Origin: Streptomyces roseicoloratus
Lineage (GTDB): Bacteria; Actinomycetota; Actinomycetes; Streptomycetales; Streptomycetaceae
Assembly: GCF_004117935.1 (NCBI RefSeq)
Contig: NZ_SDOY01000139.1
Span: 1-64,000, forward strand
Direction: 5' to 3'
Length of the DNA stretch: 64,000 bases
Shown here: piece by piece, positions 50,963-63,714 of the stretch
How positions within the stretch are numbered: the first letter of the stretch is position 1
Layout of the letters: each line of letters starts with the position of its first letter
Made by a program: the position numbers and the translations under genes
The notes under the pieces: generated by a model
What the model was told of the DNA's origin: nothing
Seen by the model: the letters and a program-made list of their open reading frames with translations, nothing else
Database searches by the model: none

Positions 50963-51922
50963 TCACGCCTCCAGGGAGCCCGGCACGATCGCCCGCGGGC
51001 CGTACTTCGCGCGGGCCCGGTCCGCCGCCTCCTCGATGCGGCGGGCCTTGTCGTCGGCCGGGTCGAAGGTGAGCTGGTGGGCGGCGCCCTCGGCCGGGGC
51101 CAGGCCCTCGGCGCGCAGCGCGATGCCCCGGACCCGGGCGCGCTGGAGGCCGAAGGAGGCGTGGATCGCGTACGCGAGCGCGGTGAGGTCCGCCGAGTGG
51201 GCGGTGGGTTCGCGCAGGGTGCGGGTGCGGCTCGTCGTGGTGCGGTCCGCGTAGCGCACGGTCACGGTCAGGGAGCGGCACACCTGGTCCTCCGTGCGCA
51301 TCCGGGCGCCCAGTTCGCCGGTGAGCGAGAGCAGCGCCCTGCGGTGTTCGGCGGTGTCCAGCTCGTCGTGCGGGAAGGAGCGTTCGGCGGCGAGCGAGCG
51401 GGAGACCTCGCCGGGGACGACCGGGGTGCGGTCGATGCCGCGGGCCCGTTCCCACAGTTCGCGGCCGGTCCTGGCGCCGACCAGCCGCTGGAGCACGGCG
51501 AGCGGTGCGTCCGCGACCCGGCCGGCGGAGTCGAGGCCGTAGCCGCAGAGGGTGCGGGCGGTGGCGCGGCCCACGCCGTCGAGGGCGGCGACCGGCTTGC
51601 CCCGCAGGAAGGCCGCCGGGTCCTCGACGACCACGGTGGCGCCGGGCCTGGCCTCGCGGGCCGCCATCCGGGCCAGCATCGGGTTGGGGCCCGCGCCGAT
51701 GACGCAGTCGATCCCGTACAGGGCGAGTGCCCTGACCCGGATCACGGAGGCGAGTTCGACCGGGCTCCAGCCGAAGTAGCGCAGCGCGCCGCGCACGTCG
51801 GCGAGCGCCTCGGCGGGCGGGGCGGCTTCGACGACGGGGGTGAACTCGCCGAGCAGGTCGAGCAGCCGAGGGAGCATCACCTCCCCCAGGGGCTCCAGTC
51901 GGAACCGTACGCAAAGGATCAT
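50963..51922 (-). CDS. ImuB-like, catalytically degenerate Y-family polymerase subunit
   Basis: A 319-residue protein built like the C-terminal two thirds of a DinB-type polymerase: IGAGPNPMLARMAA and the thumb-type VAALDGVGRATARTLCGYGL are clear, and a little-finger domain follows. But the palm is shortened by about 60 residues at the N-terminus (no HVDMDAF), and the second catalytic motif SxDEAF is replaced by PAEAL, losing an Asp while keeping the Glu. It cannot be an ordinary polymerase. HQLTFDP near 282 resembles a clamp-binding motif. Its start overlaps the dnaE2 stop by four bases (ATGA), so it is co-made with DnaE2, the arrangement expected of an ImuB-type mutasome subunit. Confidence 0.85.
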   Translation of the reverse strand: MILCVRFRLEPLGEVMLPRLLDLLGEFTPVVEAAPPAEALADVRGALRYFGWSPVELASVIRVRALALYGIDCVIGAGPNPMLARMAAREARPGATVVVEDPAAFLRGKPVAALDGVGRATARTLCGYGLDSAGRVADAPLAVLQRLVGARTGRELWERARGIDRTPVVPGEVSRSLAAERSFPHDELDTAEHRRALLSLTGELGARMRTEDQVCRSLTVTVRYADRTTTSRTRTLREPTAHSADLTALAYAIHASFGLQRARVRGIALRAEGLAPAEGAAHQLTFDPADDKARRIEEAADRARAKYGPRAIVPGSLEA

Positions 51923-54900
51923 CCCGCGCTCCCCGGACTGCTGTGCCACAGCTTCCGCGACGGCGTCGCGGCGCCTTCCCCGGCGGGCCGGAGGTCGGCC
52001 CAGGGGTTCATCTCGTAGCCGGTGGGCAGGGTGATGCGCCTGCCGGTGTCGCCGGTCCCCTCGGGGGTCTGCCCCGGCTGTTCGGAGAGCCGTTCGCCCA
52101 CCGCCTCCAGGCCGCCGCTCTCCCGCAGTTCGGCGAGTTCGGCGAGGTTCCAGGCGGCGGCGCCGACCACGCTGAGGCTGCGCGGGCCGCGCCGCTGCAC
52201 CACGCCGCGGACGAGCAGCAGCCAGGAGTGGAAGACGGTGTGGGCGCAGCGCTCGTGGGAGTCGTCGAAGAAGGCGAGGTCGACCAGGCCGGTGCCGTCG
52301 TCGAGGGTGGTGAAGATGACCCGCTTGCCGGAGCGGATCGGCGGGGTCTGGGTGGCCGCCTTGGCGCCGGCGACCAGGACGGTCTGTCCGTGGGCGGCCG
52401 AGCGCAGCCGGCGGGCGGAGACCACGCCGAGTTCGCGCAGGAAGGCCTGGTGGTCGCCCATGAGGTGGCGGGAGGCGTCCATGCCGAGGATGCCGAGTTC
52501 GGCGCTGAGCCGTTCGCTCTCGTCGAGGTCGGGCAGGCCGACGGGGGCCGTCCTGCGGCCCTGGGCGAGCGGGAGTTGTCCGCCGTAGGAGGCGGCGCCC
52601 CGCTGGGTGCGGTGGAGTTCGGTGAGGTGCAGCAGCAGGTCGCGGCGGTTGGCGCCGAAGGCGTCGAGCGCGCCGACCTGGGCGAGCCGTTCGGCGACGG
52701 GTTTGCGCGGGCGGGCCCGCTCCCAGAAGTCGAGCAGCGAGGCGTAGGGCTGTCCGGCCTCGATGCGGGCGCTCTCGGCCTCGCTGATGCCGTGCACGTC
52801 GGCGAGGCCGAGCCGGAGGCCGAACACCGGCGCCGCACCAGGCTCTTCGGATACCAGTTCGATGCGATGGGCGGCCGCCGACCGGTTCACGTCGAGCGGC
52901 AGCACGGGCACCCCGCGCCGCCGGGCGTCCGCGAGCAGCAGCCGCTTCGGGTACATGCCGGGGTCGTGGGTGAGCAGCCCGGCGTAGAAGGCGGCCGGGT
53001 GGTGCGCCTTGAGCCAGGCGGACTGGTAGGTCGGCACGGCGAAGGCCACCGCGTGCGCCTTGCAGAAGCCGTACGAGCCGAAGGCCTCGACGATCTCCCA
53101 GGTACGGGCGACGACCTCGTCCGCGTAGCCCTTCGACCGCGCCCGCTCGGCGAACCAGTTCCTGATCCTGCCCTGCGACTCGGGGTGGGAGAGGCCGCGG
53201 CGCACCTGGTCGGCCTCGTCGCGGCCGCAGCCGGTCATGACGGAGACGATCTCGATGATCTGCTCGTGGAAGACGACGACGCCGTACGTCTCCTTCAGCG
53301 CGTCCTCCAGGTCGGGGTGCGGGTAGCGGACCGGCGCGCGGCCGTGCCGGGCGGCGATGAACGGGCGGACCATGTCGGCGGCGACCGGTCCCGGGCGGAA
53401 GAGGGAGATGTCCACGACCAGGTCGTGGAAGGTCTCCGGCTGGAGCCGGCCCACCAGGTCGCGCTGGCCGGGCGACTCGATCTGGAAGCAGCCGAGGGTC
53501 TCGGTGGAGCGGATCAGCCGGTACGTGTCGGGGTCGCCGGGCGGGATCGCGTCGACGTCCGGGCGGGTGCCGGTGGCCCGTTCGACCTCGGCGACCGCGT
53601 GCGCCATCGCCGACTGCATCCGTACGCCGAGGACGTCGAGCTTGAGCAGGCCGAGGTCCTCCACGTCCTCCTTGTCGAACTGCGACATGGGCAGCCCCTC
53701 GCCGCTGGTCGGCACGACGGGGGTGCGGGCGAGCAGCGAGGCGTCGGAGAGGAGCACGCCGCAGGGGTGCATGGCGATGCCGCGGGGCAGCGCGTCGAGG
53801 GCCTCGACCAGCTCCCAGAAGCGCTCGCGTCCTTCCGTCTCCGCCTTCAGCCCGCGCAGTTCGGGCAGTTCGCCGAGGGCGGCGCGGGCGTCCCGGGCGC
53901 GGATGTGCGGGAAGGCCTTGGCGATCCGGTCGATCTCGGCCGGGTCCATGGACAGGGCGGCGCCGACGTCGCGTACCGCGTGGCGGACCCGGTAGGTCTC
54001 GGGCATGGCGACGGTGACGACCCGCTCGGCGCCGAAGCGGTCGAGGATCGCCCGGTAGACCTCGATGCGGCGGGCGGACTCCACGTCGACGTCGATGTCG
54101 GGCAGTGCGGTGCGGCGCTTGGACAGGAAGCGCTCCATCAGCAGTCCGTGCTCGACCGGGTCGGCGTGGGCGATGCCGAGGAGGTGGTTGACGAGGGAGC
54201 CGGCGCCGGAGCCGCGGGCGGCCACCCGGATGCCCATGTCCCGTACGTCGTCCACGACCTGGGCGACCGTCAGGAAGTAGCTGGCGAAGCCGTGGTGGGC
54301 GATGATGTCCAGCTCGTGGTGCATCCGGTCCCAGTAGACGCGCCGGTCGGGGCGCCGGTCGTAGCCCTTGAGGACCATGCCGGCGGCGGCCCGGGAGGCC
54401 AGCACGCGCTGGGCGGTGCGGTGGGCGGCGCCGACCAGGTACGGCTCGGGGAAGTGCGCGGAGCCCATGCCGAGGTCGTCCTGGGGGTCGACGAGGCAGG
54501 CCGCGGCGACGGCCTCGGTCCGCTCCAGGAGCCGGTGCGCGGCGTCCCGGCGGAAGCCCGCGGCCTCCACCACCCGCTCGGCCGTGGCCAGCATGGCGGC
54601 GGCGTCCTTGAGCCAGGCCTCGCCGCTGTCGAGCCCGGCGCGCGGGTCGACCGGGACGAGCCGGCGGGCCGCGTCGAGGACGTCGGCGATCGGGCCCTGG
54701 CCAGGGTCGGCGTACCGCACCTCGTTGGCGAGCACGGGGCGGACGCCCTGCTCGGCGGCGAAGCCGACGGTACGGGCGGCGAGCCGCAGCGAGCCGGGGC
54801 CGGTGCCGGAGCGTCCGTGGTGCACGACCTCCAGGCACAGGGCGTCGCCGTACCGCTCGCGCCAGGGCACGAGCAGCCGCGCGGCCCGGTCGGGGCGGCC

Positions 54901-55443
54901 CGCGGCGAGGGCCCGGCCGACGTCGGAGCCCGGGCCGAGCAGGACGAAGAGGTCCTCGCCCTGGTTGGCCGCCCAGGGCAGCACGGGCGGCCCCTCCCCC
55001 GCGTGGGCGTGGGCGGCGGTGACGAGCGCGCAGAGCCCGGCCCAGCCGGCCCGGGACCGGGCGAGGAAGACGGCGCGGGGTGCGGACTCGTCCACGAAGG
55101 CGCCGCCGCGCACGGGCGCGCGCCGCGCGGAGGTGACCCCCGCGCCCGTACCCGCCCGGCCCGTCCCGGCGCCGCCCGTCCGGGCTCCGTCGTGCCCGGC
55201 GCCGTGCGGAGGGACGGCGGTCAGGAAGGGCTCACAGGCGAGGTCCACGCCGAAGAGCGGACGGACGCCCGCCTGCTCGCAGGCCTTGGCGAAGCGGACC
55301 ACGCCCGCGACCGTGTCGCGGTCGGTCAGGGCGAGGGCGTCCATGCCGCGCTCGACGGCGCGCTCGGCCAGCCGGGCGGGGTGCGAGGCGCCGTGGCGCA
55401 GGGAGAAGCCCGACGCGGTGTGCAGATGCGTGAACCCCGGCAT
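51919..55443 (-). CDS. dnaE2: error-prone DNA polymerase III alpha subunit DnaE2
   Basis: A 1174-residue C-family polymerase. The PHP domain occupies about residues 1-220 (FTHLHTASGFSLRHGASHP, DRDTVAGVVRFAK); the catalytic palm contains LPDIDVDVESARR near 447-455, the Asp pair of polymerase III alpha, and the fingers and helix-hairpin-helix follow (GYADEVVARTWEIVEAFGSYGFCKAHA). An OB-fold near 1010-1090 ends the protein; there is no long C-terminal tail as in DnaE1. ATG 55443 has a GGGAGG site. Two LexA-type boxes lie upstream, so it is expected to be SOS-induced. It forms an operon with the ImuB-like gene. Confidence 0.95.
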   Translation of the reverse strand: MPGFTHLHTASGFSLRHGASHPARLAERAVERGMDALALTDRDTVAGVVRFAKACEQAGVRPLFGVDLACEPFLTAVPPHGAGHDGARTGGAGTGRAGTGAGVTSARRAPVRGGAFVDESAPRAVFLARSRAGWAGLCALVTAAHAHAGEGPPVLPWAANQGEDLFVLLGPGSDVGRALAAGRPDRAARLLVPWRERYGDALCLEVVHHGRSGTGPGSLRLAARTVGFAAEQGVRPVLANEVRYADPGQGPIADVLDAARRLVPVDPRAGLDSGEAWLKDAAAMLATAERVVEAAGFRRDAAHRLLERTEAVAAACLVDPQDDLGMGSAHFPEPYLVGAAHRTAQRVLASRAAAGMVLKGYDRRPDRRVYWDRMHHELDIIAHHGFASYFLTVAQVVDDVRDMGIRVAARGSGAGSLVNHLLGIAHADPVEHGLLMERFLSKRRTALPDIDVDVESARRIEVYRAILDRFGAERVVTVAMPETYRVRHAVRDVGAALSMDPAEIDRIAKAFPHIRARDARAALGELPELRGLKAETEGRERFWELVEALDALPRGIAMHPCGVLLSDASLLARTPVVPTSGEGLPMSQFDKEDVEDLGLLKLDVLGVRMQSAMAHAVAEVERATGTRPDVDAIPPGDPDTYRLIRSTETLGCFQIESPGQRDLVGRLQPETFHDLVVDISLFRPGPVAADMVRPFIAARHGRAPVRYPHPDLEDALKETYGVVVFHEQIIEIVSVMTGCGRDEADQVRRGLSHPESQGRIRNWFAERARSKGYADEVVARTWEIVEAFGSYGFCKAHAVAFAVPTYQSAWLKAHHPAAFYAGLLTHDPGMYPKRLLLADARRRGVPVLPLDVNRSAAAHRIELVSEEPGAAPVFGLRLGLADVHGISEAESARIEAGQPYASLLDFWERARPRKPVAERLAQVGALDAFGANRRDLLLHLTELHRTQRGAASYGGQLPLAQGRRTAPVGLPDLDESERLSAELGILGMDASRHLMGDHQAFLRELGVVSARRLRSAAHGQTVLVAGAKAATQTPPIRSGKRVIFTTLDDGTGLVDLAFFDDSHERCAHTVFHSWLLLVRGVVQRRGPRSLSVVGAAAWNLAELAELRESGGLEAVGERLSEQPGQTPEGTGDTGRRITLPTGYEMNPWADLRPAGEGAATPSRKLWHSSPGSAG

Positions 55444-55469
55444 GCGCCGTCCCACCTCCCACAGCGAAA

Positions 55470-58504: not shown

Positions 58505-59404
58505 CTAGTAGACGTGGACGCCGTACGCGTTCAGCGCCTCCGTGACCGGCTGGAAGAACGTGGTGCCGCCGGAGGAGCAGTTGCCGCTGCCGCCGGAGGT
58601 GAGGCCGATGGCGCGGCTGCCGGAGTAGAGCGGGCCACCGGAGTCACCGGGCTCGGCGCAGACGTTGGTCCGGATCATGCCGTAGACGATGTCGCCGCCG
58701 CCGTAGTTGACGGTGGCGTTGAGGCCGGTGACCGAGCCGCTGTGGGTGCCGGTGGTGGAGCCGCGGCGGGTGACGGACATGCCGACGGTGGCGTTGGCGG
58801 CGCTGGTGATGTCGACGCTGCCGACCGAACCGGACTTGGTCACCGTGCTGTTGGTGTAGCGCACGATGCCGTAATCGTTGTTCGGGAAGCTGGATCCGGC
58901 GGTGGAGCCGAGCACCGTGGTCCGGGAGGAGTTGGAGTACCAGGTGCCCGCGCCGTCGGTGCAGTGGCCGGCGGTCAGGAAGTAGTAGTTGCCCGCGCCG
59001 TCCCGGACGTTGAAGCCGAGGGAGCAGCGCCAGCTGCTCGCGTAGATGGCGTCGCCGCCGGAGATCAGCTTGGTGAACCTGCCCGGGGTCCGCTCGATGC
59101 GCAGGGCGCCCGCGTTGACGCCGGCCTGGCGCTTGATCTTCGCGATCTCCGCCTGCGAGACGGTCGAGTCAGCGGTGACGACCACCTTGCCGGTGGCGGC
59201 GTCGGTGTGCCAGGCGGTGCCCGCGACGTCGGCGGCGAGGACGGCGTCGCTCGCGGCGGCGAGCTGGGCGGTGCCGAAGGCCGGTGCGGAGTCGGCGCTC
59301 GCGGTGGGGACGGCGAGCGCCGCGGCGGCGACCAGACCGGTCGCCACGGCGGCCATCCTGACGGTGCCGGTCTTTCTCGTGGGGGTGGTGCGCTTGATCC
59401 TCAC
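58505..59404 (-). CDS. streptogrisin-type secreted serine protease (1)
   Basis: A 299-residue chymotrypsin-fold S1 protease with an alpha-lytic-type prodomain. Signal peptide about 1-37, propeptide to about 110, mature domain from [13 protein letters not shown]. Catalytic residues: His in LTAGHC, Asp in NNDYGIV, Ser in [10 protein letters not shown]; the CSLGF and AGHC cysteines form the first disulfide. Typical product is a secreted digestive protease of the streptogrisin A/B family. GTG start with a GAGG site. A paralogue lies immediately upstream. Confidence 0.93.
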
Positions 59405-59574: not shown

Positions 59575-60429
59575 CTAGAGGAGGCTCACCTTGTACTTGG
59601 CGAGCGCCTCGGGCACCGGCTGGTAGAACGTGGTGCCGCCGGAGGAGCAGTTGCCGCTGCCGCCGGAGGTGATGCCGAGCGCCTTGGTGCCGTCGTAGAG
59701 GGCACCACCCGAGTCGCCGGGCTCGGCGCAGACGTTGGTCTGGATCATGCCGCGCACGGTGCCGCCGCCGGAGTAGTGGACGGTGGCGTTCACACCGGTG
59801 ACGGTGCCGCTGCGGGTGCCGGTGGTCGAGCCGGAACGCTTGACGGACTCGCCCACGTAGGCGTCGGCGGCGGTGAAGCCGCCGGTGCGGCCGAGCGAGG
59901 TGTTGTCGTAGCGGACCAGGGCGTAGTCGTTGCCCGGGAAGCTCGATCCGACCGTGGGACCGATCAGCGTGGACTGGGCCGAGTTGGCGTACCAGGTCTT
60001 CACGACGTTTCCGCAGTGGCCGGCGGTCAGGAAGTAGGGCGTGCCGCCCTTGACCACGTTGAAGCCGAGCGAACAGCGGTAGCCACTGCCGTAGATGGCG
60101 TCGCCCGGTCCGAGCAGGGGCGTGAAGACCCCGGCGGTTCTCTCGACCCGCAGCGCCGCGGCGTCGGCGCCGGCCGCCCGGCGGATCTTCGCGATGCCGG
60201 CCTCGCCGACCGTGGAGTCGACGGTGACGACGACCCGGCCCGCGGCCTTGTCGACGTACCAGGCGGTGCCGCCGACGTCCGCCTTCAGGACGGCGGCGTC
60301 GGCACGGGCGAGCGCCTGGGCGCTCGCCGGTCCGGGCGTGGGGGCGGCGTGGGCGCCGGGAAGGCCGAGGGCGGTGGCCGCCGTGGCGGCGGCGACGACG
60401 GCGAGCAGTCGGATGCGTGTGGTCCTCAC
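59575..60429 (-). CDS. streptogrisin-type secreted serine protease (2)
   Basis: A 284-residue paralogue of the preceding gene, with signal peptide, alpha-lytic-type propeptide ([18 protein letters not shown]) and the same catalytic set: [15 protein letters not shown] and [10 protein letters not shown]. The GTG start has an AGGAG site close by. The two proteases are tandem duplicates with differing propeptides and loops, so they may differ in specificity. Both are last in their short transcripts on the minus strand. Confidence 0.92.
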
Positions 60430-60703
60430 TGGTCTCCTTCGGGTAGACACCGGAGGAACCCGCGGGTGGCGGGCCCATGAGGCATCGTCAGGTGACGTGT
60501 ACCTGACATGCACCGCGAGCGATACTGGCCCACCGATCCGGAACGCACAAGACCGCCCCCGCCCCGGCTCTACGCGCGTGGGCGGTGCGGGCCCCGGGGC
60601 CCGCACCGCCCGTCGGCTCCGTGACGGAACGCGGGCCGGCGTCCGCGGAAGGTCCGCACGGCAGCCGCACGGGGGCGGCGTCAGCCGTCCGCGCGGACCG
60701 ACG

Positions 60704-61519
60704 TCAGGCGCCCGCCACCCGCCGCTCCCCCGCCGCGACCGCCGTGTCCAGGGTGTTGCCCGGCGGCGGGAACGGGCAGATGAAGTGCGCCGCGAACGCG
60801 CACGGCGGCAGCAGCGCCCGGTTGAAGTCCACCGTCACCGAACCGTCCGCCGCCGGGGCGGCCGGCCGCAGGAAGCGGAAGCGGTAGCTGTCCCGGCCGC
60901 TGGTGGCGTCCGCGAACACCGCCCACAGCGTGCCGTCGTCCTCCACCGCCACCTGGAGGCCGTGCTCGGCGCCGTTCAGGTCGAAGACCAGCTCGCCGGA
61001 GAGCCCCAGACCGCGCTCCCTGCCGTCCGCGTTCGCGACGCGGACGTGCCGGTCCTCCCGGTACGGGCGGAACACTCCCGGCCGCACCCACTTCTCGTCG
61101 TACGGCGTGGCCTCGATGCCCCGGAAGGCGCGGCGCGCCTCCGACTCGGGGTCGAAGTCCCGTACCGCCCACTCGCCCTCGCGGCGCAGCACGACGAGGC
61201 GCCGTCCCGCCGACTCGGCCCGGGACTCGTGGATCGGGCCGTGGTCGGCGGTCAGCCGCACGGTGCCGATCAGCGGCTTGCCGTCGACCGTGACGGCGTC
61301 CTCGGCGCCCGCGCCGAGGACCACCTCGTCACCGTCCGCCCGCCACTCCCCCGGAACCGCCGGAATCCGCCCCTGCGGGTAGTCCGACAGCCAGTAGGTG
61401 CCGGTCAGCGAGAGCGGCCCGTACGACGACGCGACCGCCGCGTTCCGCTGCTCGTGCCAGCGCTGTCAGTCCTGCCGTTCCCGCCCGTCCTGCCGGTCCC
61501 GAGATGCATCCGTACTCAT
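60704..61519 (-). pseudogene. DUF1684 gene interrupted by a nonsense codon
   Basis: From ATG 61519 the reading frame gives MSTDASRDRQDGRERQD, then TGA at 61466-61468 (codon 18), then QRWHEQRNAAVASSYGPLSLTG and a complete DUF1684 domain to the stop at 60704 ([43 protein letters not shown]). The TGA stands exactly where a TGG (Trp) would give a normal start, so a single G-to-A change explains it. Downstream GTG codons (61324 onward) could allow re-initiation of a shortened protein. No ribosome binding site precedes either start. Confidence 0.7.
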
Positions 61520-61612: not shown

Positions 61613-62953
61613 TCAGCAGCCGTCGCAAGGGCAGCAACAGTCACAGCCGTTGCAGCAGTTGCCGTCGCAGTTGCAGTCCCGGCAGCAGCCCTCGCGCTTC
61701 TTCCGCGACCACGGGCCCTCGTACTCCTTGGCGCAGCAGATCCGGCAGGTGCAGAAGAGCCAGGTGAACATGGCGCAGCCGGCCAGGAAGCCGCGGGGCT
61801 TCTTCGGCTGCTGCGGCCCTCCGGCACCGAACTGCGGCGGCAGCCCGCCGGGCCCGCCCGGGCCGCCGAAGCCACCGGAACCGCCATGGCCGCCATGGCC
61901 GCCGTACCCGCCCGGCCCGCCCGGCCCGCCGGGACCCACCGGGCCGCCGCCGTACGGATGCTGCCCGCCCTGCGGGTGCCCGCCGTACTGGCCGCCCCCG
62001 TACGGGTTTCCACCGCCGTACGGGTGGGGCTGCGAGCCGTACGGTCCGGGCGTCCCGCCCTGGGGGGCGCCCGGCGCGCCGTGGGAGCAGGTCGTCGTGC
62101 CGAAGGCGCGGTCGACGGAGGCGCGCAGTTCGTGCGCGAGGAGGACATGCGCGAGGTGCCCGTCGGTGAACTCGGCGTCCTTCAGCGCGAGGCGTATGCC
62201 GTGCAGCGCGTCGTCGGCGAGCCGGCGGGCCTCCTCGCGGGAGGTGCCGGTCGCGGTGAGCGGGTTCCAGGCGCCGGTCGCGTCGTCGGCGGCCTGGTCC
62301 TCGACGGCGTCCAGGAGGTGGGCGAGGCGCCCGAAGAGGCGGCCCGCCTCGGCGAGCGGTTCGGCGTTGCCGGGGCGGCCGGCGAGGACCGCGGTGTGCG
62401 CGAAGGCGGCCGCGGTCGCCGTCTCGGTCGGCTCGGTGACGACGAGCAGCGACGTGCCGGGGCCGGCCAGGGCCTCGAGACCGGTCTGGCGGTCGACCGC
62501 GTCGACCAGGACGGCGGTGTCGAAGCCGAGCTCGCGGCCGGTGCGGGCGCCGGCCCGGTCCCAGGAGCGGGCCACCCGGCGGGCCGCGGCGGCGACCGGC
62601 CGGCGGGCCAGCAGCCCGTCCCGGTCGGCGACGTGGTCGCGGATCTTCGCGGAGGCGAGGACCAGGGAGACGGCGGCGGCGAGCCGCGCGCCCTCGCCGC
62701 GGGCGACGGGCGCGGTGCGCATGGCGCGCAGCGGGCAGGGGCCCGCGGTGCGCCGGCCGGCCTCCGTCAGGCCGGCCTGAGCCTCCGTCAGGACCGAGAC
62801 GATCAGACCGTCGTAGTTGGTGACGACCCGGGCGAACTGCCCGTGGTCGGCGCGAAGTGCCAGGCAGAGGCCGCAGAGATGGGCCATCCACTCCACCTTG
62901 AGGCCTTCGGTGAGGCGGTGCGCGCAGGGCCTGACGATTCCGAACAAAGACAC
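61613..62953 (-). CDS. DUF5685 protein with Gly-rich linker and Cys-rich tail
   Basis: A 446-residue protein. The N-terminal DUF5685 domain (about 1-285) starts SLFGIVRPCAHRLTEGLKVEWMAHLCGLCLAL with clustered His/Cys residues and is mostly helical. A Gly/Pro/His/Tyr-rich repeat region (PYGG, GGPGG) follows, then a hydrophobic segment and a tail with about twenty cysteines in fifty residues (CTCRICC, GCCRDCNCDGNCCNGCDCCCPCDGC type). Cysteine-rich ends suggest metal binding or disulfide cross-linking, but the function is unknown. The tail has no signal peptide. It is divergent from the sflA-like gene. Confidence 0.85.
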   Translation of the reverse strand: MSLFGIVRPCAHRLTEGLKVEWMAHLCGLCLALRADHGQFARVVTNYDGLIVSVLTEAQAGLTEAGRRTAGPCPLRAMRTAPVARGEGARLAAAVSLVLASAKIRDHVADRDGLLARRPVAAAARRVARSWDRAGARTGRELGFDTAVLVDAVDRQTGLEALAGPGTSLLVVTEPTETATAAAFAHTAVLAGRPGNAEPLAEAGRLFGRLAHLLDAVEDQAADDATGAWNPLTATGTSREEARRLADDALHGIRLALKDAEFTDGHLAHVLLAHELRASVDRAFGTTTCSHGAPGAPQGGTPGPYGSQPHPYGGGNPYGGGQYGGHPQGGQHPYGGGPVGPGGPGGPGGYGGHGGHGGSGGFGGPGGPGGLPPQFGAGGPQQPKKPRGFLAGCAMFTWLFCTCRICCAKEYEGPWSRKKREGCCRDCNCDGNCCNGCDCCCPCDGC

Positions 62954-63279
62954 TCCCCCGGGGACCGGCGCGCGGATCCCGCGCGGCTGCGTCGGGCATC
63001 GTACCGAGGGGGCGGCCGGAAACCGTTCACCCGTACGCCCTCGTCCTCACCCTTCTGGCCCGTCTTTCATATTTTAAGTTGCGCGCCCCGATCCGACCCC
63101 CTGTCAGCCCCCGTAAACCGCCTCATCCCTGACGATTCGCCAGATTTCGGCCCTCACGTTCTGCACCAGTACCGTCACGAATCCCCTGCGCGCCGACTAT
63201 CCACTTGGCGCGCGATCCGCATCATGGACGACGATAGGGATTGCGGAACCACGAGTGACCGCGCTGAAAGGAGGCGTCC
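62954..63279. other. divergent promoter region before the sflA-like gene
   Basis: No gene is supported. Near 63070-63080 an AT-rich patch (atattttaagttg) stands out and may be a promoter element. The rest is GC-rich with no satellite. Confidence 0.4.
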
Positions 63280-63714
63280 ATGGGATCGGTGCGCAAGGCC
63301 AGTGCCTGGCTGGGACTCGTCGAGGACAACGACGAGCGTTACTACGACGACGAGTACGCCGACGGTGCCGAGAGCAACGACGCCTGGGTGACGGACCCGC
63401 GGGTGCGGGTGGCGTCCGACACGGCGCAGGAGCATGGCCGTCGGATCGCGACCCTCTCGCCCGACGGGTTCCGGGACGCCCGGGGCATCGGCGAGCTGTT
63501 CCGGGACGGCGTCCCGGTGATCGTGAACCTGACCGCGATGGAGCCGAACGACGCCAAGCGCGTGGTCGACTTCTGCGCCGGTCTCGCCTTCGGTCTGCGC
63601 GGCTCGATCGAGCGGGTGGCCACCCGGGTCTTCCTGCTGACGCCGGCGGACACGGAGATCGTCAGCGGCGAACCCGGCGGCCGTTCACAGGACGGCTTCT
63701 TCAACCAGAGCTGA
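63280..63714 (+). CDS. sflA: SepF-like protein SflA
   Basis: A 144-residue member of the SepF family, the membrane-FtsZ tether of cell division. The C-terminal SepF fold is clear ([54 protein letters not shown], then [12 protein letters not shown]). The N-terminus has [17 protein letters not shown], an amphipathic membrane-targeting helix, and an acidic linker. Streptomyces has SepF plus two paralogues, SflA and SflB; this gene is not next to ftsZ, and its setting and short length point to SflA. The ATG has an excellent GGAGG site. Confidence 0.85.

Follow-up and report, generated by a model that had tools for sequence, protein, structure and literature searches.

ComQ, PalQ and ChrPC are peptide prenyltransferases resembling trans-isoprenyl-diphosphate synthases, and ComQ has a dedicated polypeptide partner, ComX, with the comQ and comX genes adjoining. 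ComQ and PalQ prenylate peptides (PMC13290415; accessible part of PMC5331326), and a change in the first Asp motif of ComQ abolished pheromone signalling (accessible part of PMC5331326). According to a 2026 review, all characterised isoprenoid-synthase-like peptide prenyltransferases of the ComQ/PalQ/ChrPC type target tryptophan, and ComQ-like enzymes carry a Gln just upstream of the second Asp motif (PMC13290415); in eukaryotic protein prenyltransferases zinc activates the cysteine (PMC13290415, in the portion available). The J protein CSP carries a string of 13-15 Cys, mostly palmitoylated (accessible part of PMC6747476). CYSTM (PF12734) is a Cys-rich tail-anchored module described in eukaryotic stress proteins (accessible parts of PMC10217909 and PMC8049917) and implicated in plant and yeast metal tolerance (accessible part of PMC10217909).

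Here we compare these systems with a DUF5685 protein of Streptomyces roseicoloratus, encoded in a window (the whole stretch of DNA analysed) of 64,000 nucleotides, positions 1 to 64,000 of contig NZ_SDOY01000139.1. DUF5685 is a Pfam family separate from ComQ, PalQ and ChrPC, with which its modelled domain shares a predicted isoprenoid-synthase fold. Just as ComQ has ComX, DUF5685 has a dedicated tail or partner, which is Cys-rich, where the characterised enzymes target tryptophan, and is often fused to the domain; the window protein reads HLLDAVED, i.e. it has no Gln directly before the second Asp motif. The PF00348 polyprenyl and geranylgeranyl diphosphate synthases have the modelled fold and two Asp-rich motifs in common with DUF5685, which differs in lacking a match to their profile and in having a relaxed first motif, extra conserved Cys residues and a Cys tail. 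CSP (DNAJC5) and the J protein that accompanies a split form of DUF5685 (see below) both combine a J domain with a cysteine string, the latter mostly with a DnaK-like gene adjoining; CSP is neuronal, whereas the bacterial J partners have TPR repeats and 5-9 Cys at the very C-terminus, and to our knowledge CSP has no isoprenoid-synthase partner. The likeness to CYSTM consists of a variable linker, a hydrophobic Cys-rich segment and an acidic residue, to which DUF5685 proteins add a Cys/Asp tail and fusion to an enzyme-like domain. Metallothioneins are alike in Cys density, but the DUF5685 tail has acidic partners, an attached hydrophobic segment and no match to their families. The features of the locus are as follows.

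61613-62953, minus strand: gene for the DUF5685 protein (446 amino acids, GTG start, TGA stop; ORF bounds exact)
62225-62947, minus strand: DUF5685 domain, residues 3-243, by Pfam (predicted isoprenoid-synthase fold in the model of residues 1-290)
62864-62875, minus strand: CGLC motif (C27, C30), a CxxC also found in Clostridia and the split-form class
62735-62737, minus strand: C73, conserved in the alignment
62624-62638, minus strand: first Asp motif, DHVAD, residues 106-110, at the end of helix 87-109
62285-62311, minus strand: second Asp motif, DAVEDQAAD, residues 215-223, followed by GAWNP, at the end of helix 194-218
61796-62086, minus strand: linker rich in G/P/Q/H/Y, residues 290-386, with no predicted structure
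61733-61795, minus strand: hydrophobic Cys segment RGFLAGCAMFTWLFCTCRICC, residues 387-407, CYSTM-like in some relatives but not in this copy
61616-61714, minus strand: PWS, basic patch and terminal Cys/Asp/Gly tail, residues 414-446, with 12 Cys
62954-63279, no strand: intergenic region of 326 bp between the divergent DUF5685 and SepF-like genes
63280-63714, plus strand: SepF-like gene, divergent neighbour
60704-61324, minus strand: DUF1684 gene, a neighbour that is probably unrelated

Residues 3-243 match PF18937 (DUF5685) with an E-value of 3.1e-18 and 66.6 bits against a cut-off of 26.7. The protein contains 22 Cys (positions 10, 27, 30, 73, 289, 393, 401, 403, 406, 407, 423, 424, 427, 429, 433, 434, 437, 439, 440, 441, 443 and 446), 17 of which fall within the final 60 residues (16 within the final 50). 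The initial annotation was right about the Cys-rich end and slightly high in counting about twenty there. The Gly/His/Tyr-rich linker, the short hydrophobic stretch and the helical domain with its own Cys and His that it described are all present (residues 290-386, residues 387-407, and Cys 10, 27, 30 and 73 respectively); the isoprenoid-synthase fold predicted for this helical domain lies beyond what a sequence-only reading could see. At the local background Cys frequency (28 of 3085 residues in eight neighbouring ORFs taken as genes), at least 17 Cys in 60 residues has a probability of about 5e-21, and this figure, together with the conservation of the tail, leads us to reject chance composition.

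Conservation was followed in 104 loci (L001-L104, including the window's gene), made up of the best 80 of 140 loci from a contig scan, all titled Streptomyces bar one titled Microtetraspora, and 24 from relatives. In 98 of the proteins as extracted, the final 60 residues include 8 or more Cys (9-24, with a median of 20). The six exceptions comprise L013, whose tail region contains unread bases; L071 and L095, both truncated by a contig end; and L024, L082 and L089, whose extracted frames, perhaps broken, end without such a tail. The part after the PW motif spans 21-57 residues with 8-21 Cys and consists of 39.6% Cys, 16.2% Asp and 14.7% Gly (96 of the 104 loci, omitting four that are incomplete or short and four without a PW motif). 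Across these 96 tails the amount of Cys is kept while its order and spacing vary freely, mostly as CC, CxC and CxxC. The Cys pattern whose conservation in close homologues the initial annotation had looked to is therefore retained as Cys content and as the hydrophobic segment, and not as exact terminal spacing.

The family occurs in 57 of 296 genomes across the class Actinomycetes, and all 29 loci drawn from that survey have at least 12 Cys after residue 230. A class-wide fetch yielded 40 loci, of which one is from Streptomyces and 39 come from 34 of the 35 non-Streptomyces genomes with a match; L238 is cut by its contig, a fragment in G245 was left out, and 21 genes are shared with the 29-locus set. 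These loci cover five families by the tool's labels, and all 39 readable ones have 8-22 Cys in the last 60 residues. DUF5685 proteins in plasmid-collection records of Nocardia, Tsukamurella and Nonomuraea also end Cys-rich. Within Streptomyces the family was found in 24 of 25 genomes of a sample of relatives and in 22 of 28 genomes among the matches listed, two genomes being in both samples; a search of the seven Streptomyces lacking it with the window protein, run without a positive control, was also empty. In the S. roseicoloratus genome a profile of the tail returned the gene itself and one weak match (E 0.057; 150 of 391 candidates scored).

Several loci depart from the single-copy arrangement. 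Some Streptomyces have a second, diverged DUF5685 copy with a long Gly/Ser-repeat linker, whose tail ends CCNPCKCCCDCCD (L054 and L088, both of strain NRRL F-5727, and L251), and four genomes of family f19 (L247, L248, L249 and L250) have a second copy with a shorter tail of 8-11 Cys in the last 60 residues. In Tsukamurella (L136:7386-7931) the DUF5685 gene comes after a gene annotated as an Imm51 immunity protein. In another family of the phylum, G372 shows a weak DUF5685 match over two frames (L154:4584-5524), perhaps the remains of a decaying copy or an artefact of sequencing.

The hydrophobic segment follows the ordered consensus RG-x-x-AGC-x(7)-C-T-C-x-x-CC and its hydropathy over 17 residues peaks at a mean of 1.76 (range 1.35-2.18), a borderline value for a membrane helix. 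Of 117 tails, 24 matched CYSTM at E <=0.1 (best 3e-6), no other Pfam family being reported, and a rescan of ten tails put two above the Pfam cut-off (25.4 and 25.6 against 25.2 bits). The window's own tail gave no CYSTM match, and the S. roseicoloratus genome none above the cut-off. A full-length structure model has a mean pLDDT of 51.4, with the tail and linker mostly below 50 and the domain also worse than when modelled alone; within the tail, on which it is uninformative, it contains a single low-confidence helix at 390-401. In actinobacteria the terminal part of the tail is acidic and hydrophilic, its mean charge being -5.9 beyond the first ten residues.

The AlphaFold2 model of residues 1-290, built from an alignment of 30 sequences, reached a pLDDT of 79.7 and a pTM of 0.82, the first 13 residues being poor. 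In Foldseek against the PDB, every one of the best 50 of 411 matches was a prenyl synthase or prenyltransferase, often with several chains of one entry among them; the best was 5zlf, an octaprenyl pyrophosphate synthase (E 2.6e-4), and three of the 411 had E <=0.001. On VIA realignment the polyprenyl synthase 4jxy gave a Z of 22.1 (2.7 A over 243 residues) and row 50 a Z of 19.2, on a scale where values under about 13 mean little for helical bundles. Of the 50 rows, 49 bear prenyl synthase or prenyltransferase names, the remaining one is an 'ACP-HEPS2' model, and squalene/phytoene synthases are not among them. The domain is thus predicted to have the all-alpha isoprenoid-synthase fold over its whole length. 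Profile searches of the window protein returned DUF5685 alone at E up to 1, with no match to PF00348 or any other Pfam family. The best phmmer match in the PDB, a polyprenyl synthetase, was not significant (E 0.047; domain i-Evalues 2.5 and 200), and in its alignment both Asp motifs fall opposite the synthetase's own. Pairwise hhalign placed the second motif against that of polyprenyl synthases (E 0.059) and that of squalene/phytoene synthases (E 0.26), neither significantly.

Both Asp motifs sit at helix ends in the model. Residue conservation was counted in 67 proteins (11 and 39 from actinomycetes, 15 from the split-form class and 2 from Clostridia), in which D106, D215, D219, D223, E160 and N230 are invariant and D110 is found in 66. 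C27, C30, C73 and D48 are each found in 66 of the 67, the remaining row being a gap, though C27 and C30 are conserved by construction in the 15 split-form-class rows because these were picked for YCGLC; the three rows left out (L172, L173 and L175) read YCGVC and have both Asp motifs. The strict DDxxD form of the first motif is absent from the window protein (DHVAD), Asp at position 107 being found in 13 of the 67, namely 12 of the 15 split-form-class rows and one of the two Clostridia. Judged from the alignment, such conservation of Asp, Glu and Asn is what an active Mg2+ enzyme would show.

In some bacteria outside the Actinomycetes the tail and the domain are found on separate proteins. Two Clostridia records of the plasmid collection, from Subdoligranulum (L134) and Pusillibacter (L155), have a DUF5685 gene without a Cys tail, followed by a gene for a J-domain and TPR protein with a Cys-rich end. 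The same arrangement occurs in a second actinobacterial class, which we take to be the Coriobacteriia, where DUF5685 was detected in 18 of 197 genomes. A profile of the J protein (TPR plus tail; A2, built from four of the 18 J proteins and the two of Clostridia) matched the same 18 genomes at E 7.2e-28 or better, and 46 others weakly (best E 4.2e-8), the matched positions suggesting that the latter are TPR proteins. Fisher's test for this co-occurrence gives P 7e-26 with kinship ignored, which overstates the case because genomes within a clade are not independent. Three sampled genomes of genus g195 have both genes and a fourth, G434, has neither.

In 16 of the 18 genomes the J gene comes immediately after the DUF5685 gene and in the same orientation; in G493 and G571 it is elsewhere in the genome and again encodes a Cys tail. 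For 15 of these 16 pairs, and for the two of Clostridia, the J gene starts between -8 and +123 bp from the DUF5685 stop (start codons being our choice and L180 unassigned). Sequence similarity (phmmer) identified a DnaK-like gene after the J gene in 13 of the 16 and on the opposite flank in L178; none was seen in L170 or L179. In Pusillibacter the next annotated gene past the J gene is another one, not DnaK-like. At most one Cys (0-1) occurs in the last 60 residues of each of the 18 DUF5685 proteins from this class; the J proteins (17 measured) end in hydrophobic tails that contain 5-9 Cys within the last 40 residues. HPD is present in 16 of the 17 measured J partners and NPD in one, and the one scanned matched the DnaJ family of Pfam. 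Among 26 genomes of Actinomycetes with the fused form, the J-Cys protein gave weak matches alone, in five (best E 4.6e-7), and with no strong match we reject such a partner there. One scan of viral contigs returned no relative of the Subdoligranulum protein.

What the fused and split forms have in common is the Cys-rich tail rather than the J domain, and most simply the DUF5685 domain would act on this tail or depend on it. We favour, tentatively and at somewhat below even chances, an account in which DUF5685 is a family of Mg-dependent enzymes of isoprenoid-synthase fold dedicated to a Cys-rich membrane tail, which they perhaps prenylate. The narrower proposal that DUF5685 is a cysteine prenyltransferase, which lipidates cysteine strings within its own chain in Actinomycetes and on its dedicated J protein in Coriobacteriia and Clostridia, is possible but doubtful. 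The tail is fused to the DUF5685 domain in Actinomycetes and carried in the split form by the J-domain/TPR protein usually encoded right after it. As the likely mechanism on the favoured account, the two Asp-rich motifs would hold Mg2+ and allow a prenyl diphosphate to be ionised, the prenyl chain would pass to the cysteines of the tail, and the prenylated cysteines would anchor it to the membrane; the CxxC and C73 might, speculatively, form a thiolate or zinc site. Catalysis, cysteine as the acceptor and membrane anchoring are all steps that we infer. The split form might then, by analogy and with the same doubt, be a bacterial, prenyl-based counterpart of the palmitoylated cysteine string protein. 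The initial annotation had offered a metal store, a redox sensor or a cross-linked surface anchor, of which an anchor fits best, as a membrane tail rather than a cross-linked surface structure, because of the CYSTM-like segment in relatives and the Cys tail on the J protein beside a tail-less DUF5685.

It is rather unlikely that the domain instead makes or modifies a small isoprenoid, with the Cys tail a mere membrane anchor, the J and DnaK-like proteins chaperones and the cysteines no substrate. The modelled fold and the Asp motifs would fit such an enzyme too, the CYSTM-like segment of relatives resembles that of proteins described as tail-anchored (accessible part of PMC10217909), and the pairing of J and DnaK-like genes with DUF5685 agrees with it, since the J proteins may do no more than chaperone the enzyme. 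Genes for isoprenoid synthesis, ispD and ispF, lie a few kb upstream in one Clostridium-type record, which may be coincidence, and among the top 14 clusters of shared neighbours in Actinomycetes no isoprenoid gene was recognised. An anchored enzyme also leaves unexplained why Cys content stays while its order changes, and why the 26 fused-form genomes show no strong J-Cys partner. In that record, from Pusillibacter, the DUF5685/J pair (L155:637-5996) comes after cdaA, CdaR-family and RseC-family genes, with ispD and ispF further upstream.

A metallothionein-like metal-thiolate store or metal sensor, with the enzyme-like features of the scaffold incidental, is unlikely too, but the acidic, hydrophilic actinomycete tail sits badly with lipidation and so keeps metal binding alive. 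A tail of about 40% Cys in CC, CxC and CxxC spacings with acidic partners would suit metal at least as well as lipid, and CYSTM proteins are tied to metal tolerance in plants and yeast (accessible part of PMC10217909); regulator genes of the Fur and ArsR types are found about 7.5 kb from the Tsukamurella gene, too far away to count for much. Metallothionein families matched none of the 117 tails at E 0.1, a search in which HMMER filters can hide low-complexity matches, and we reject a simple metallothionein on that result. A metal role would also have to accommodate the hydrophobic J-protein tails, with their 5-9 Cys per last 40 residues, and Asp motifs retained as in an active enzyme.

That the tail serves as a redox switch or as a disulfide cross-linker, linked in Streptomyces to SepF and septation, is favoured by the densely paired Cys and the divergent SepF-like gene of 56 of 78 Streptomyces-type loci (from L025-L104), but is very improbable, as it leaves the modelled fold and the J-protein split unexplained and SepF (queried with the window's own) was found in none of 38 loci of the class-wide fetch, where the tail is present. 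The SepF neighbour being restricted to Streptomyces-type loci, a septation function was rejected. A scan of the divergent promoter region for motifs found one GGAAC only, which is not meaningful. Among 47 loci compared across actinomycete families, the top 14 clusters held no broadly shared neighbour, the largest cluster other than DUF5685 comprising 8 loci of two families and partly ORFs that overlap the gene on the opposite strand; on these clusters we reject a conserved operon partner in Actinomycetes, and the result fits a largely self-contained protein. A response-regulator-like gene lies 10-215 bp downstream on the same strand in seven of eight loci of family f20 (L226, L234, L235 and L239-L243). 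Elsewhere in the window, two tandem minus-strand genes encode trypsin-like (streptogrisin-type) proteases, that at 59575-60606 matching Trypsin and the alpha-lytic prodomain and that at 58505-59404 being recognised by sequence similarity alone. The 1178-amino-acid minus-strand ORF at 51919-55455 looks like one for an error-prone DNA polymerase III alpha subunit.

SCO1749 is a SepF-like gene. A single mention of it was found in the portions of the literature available, in a group of genes that sigma-E and BldC both likely regulate; SCO1750 is likewise named once, among lipid degradation proteins, and nothing on SCO1748 was found in the literature searched. DUF5685 itself receives a bare mention in one paper in the accessible portions of the full-text literature, a scope that leaves out most subscription journals. 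Among the matches listed from full text there was no case of a bacterial cysteine-string J protein (best 10 of 11 and best 10 of 59) and no description of bacterial cysteine prenylation by such a system (best 12 of 16). Even without prenylation, a cysteine-string J protein that co-occurs in 18 of 18 genomes with a protein of predicted isoprenoid-synthase fold is a pairing that we did not find in the literature searched. If the proposal is true, a cysteine-directed enzyme with a fused or adjoining substrate would add a route of protein lipidation in bacteria, and would explain an uncharacterised gene of most sampled Streptomyces and of some Clostridia and Coriobacteriia-like genomes.
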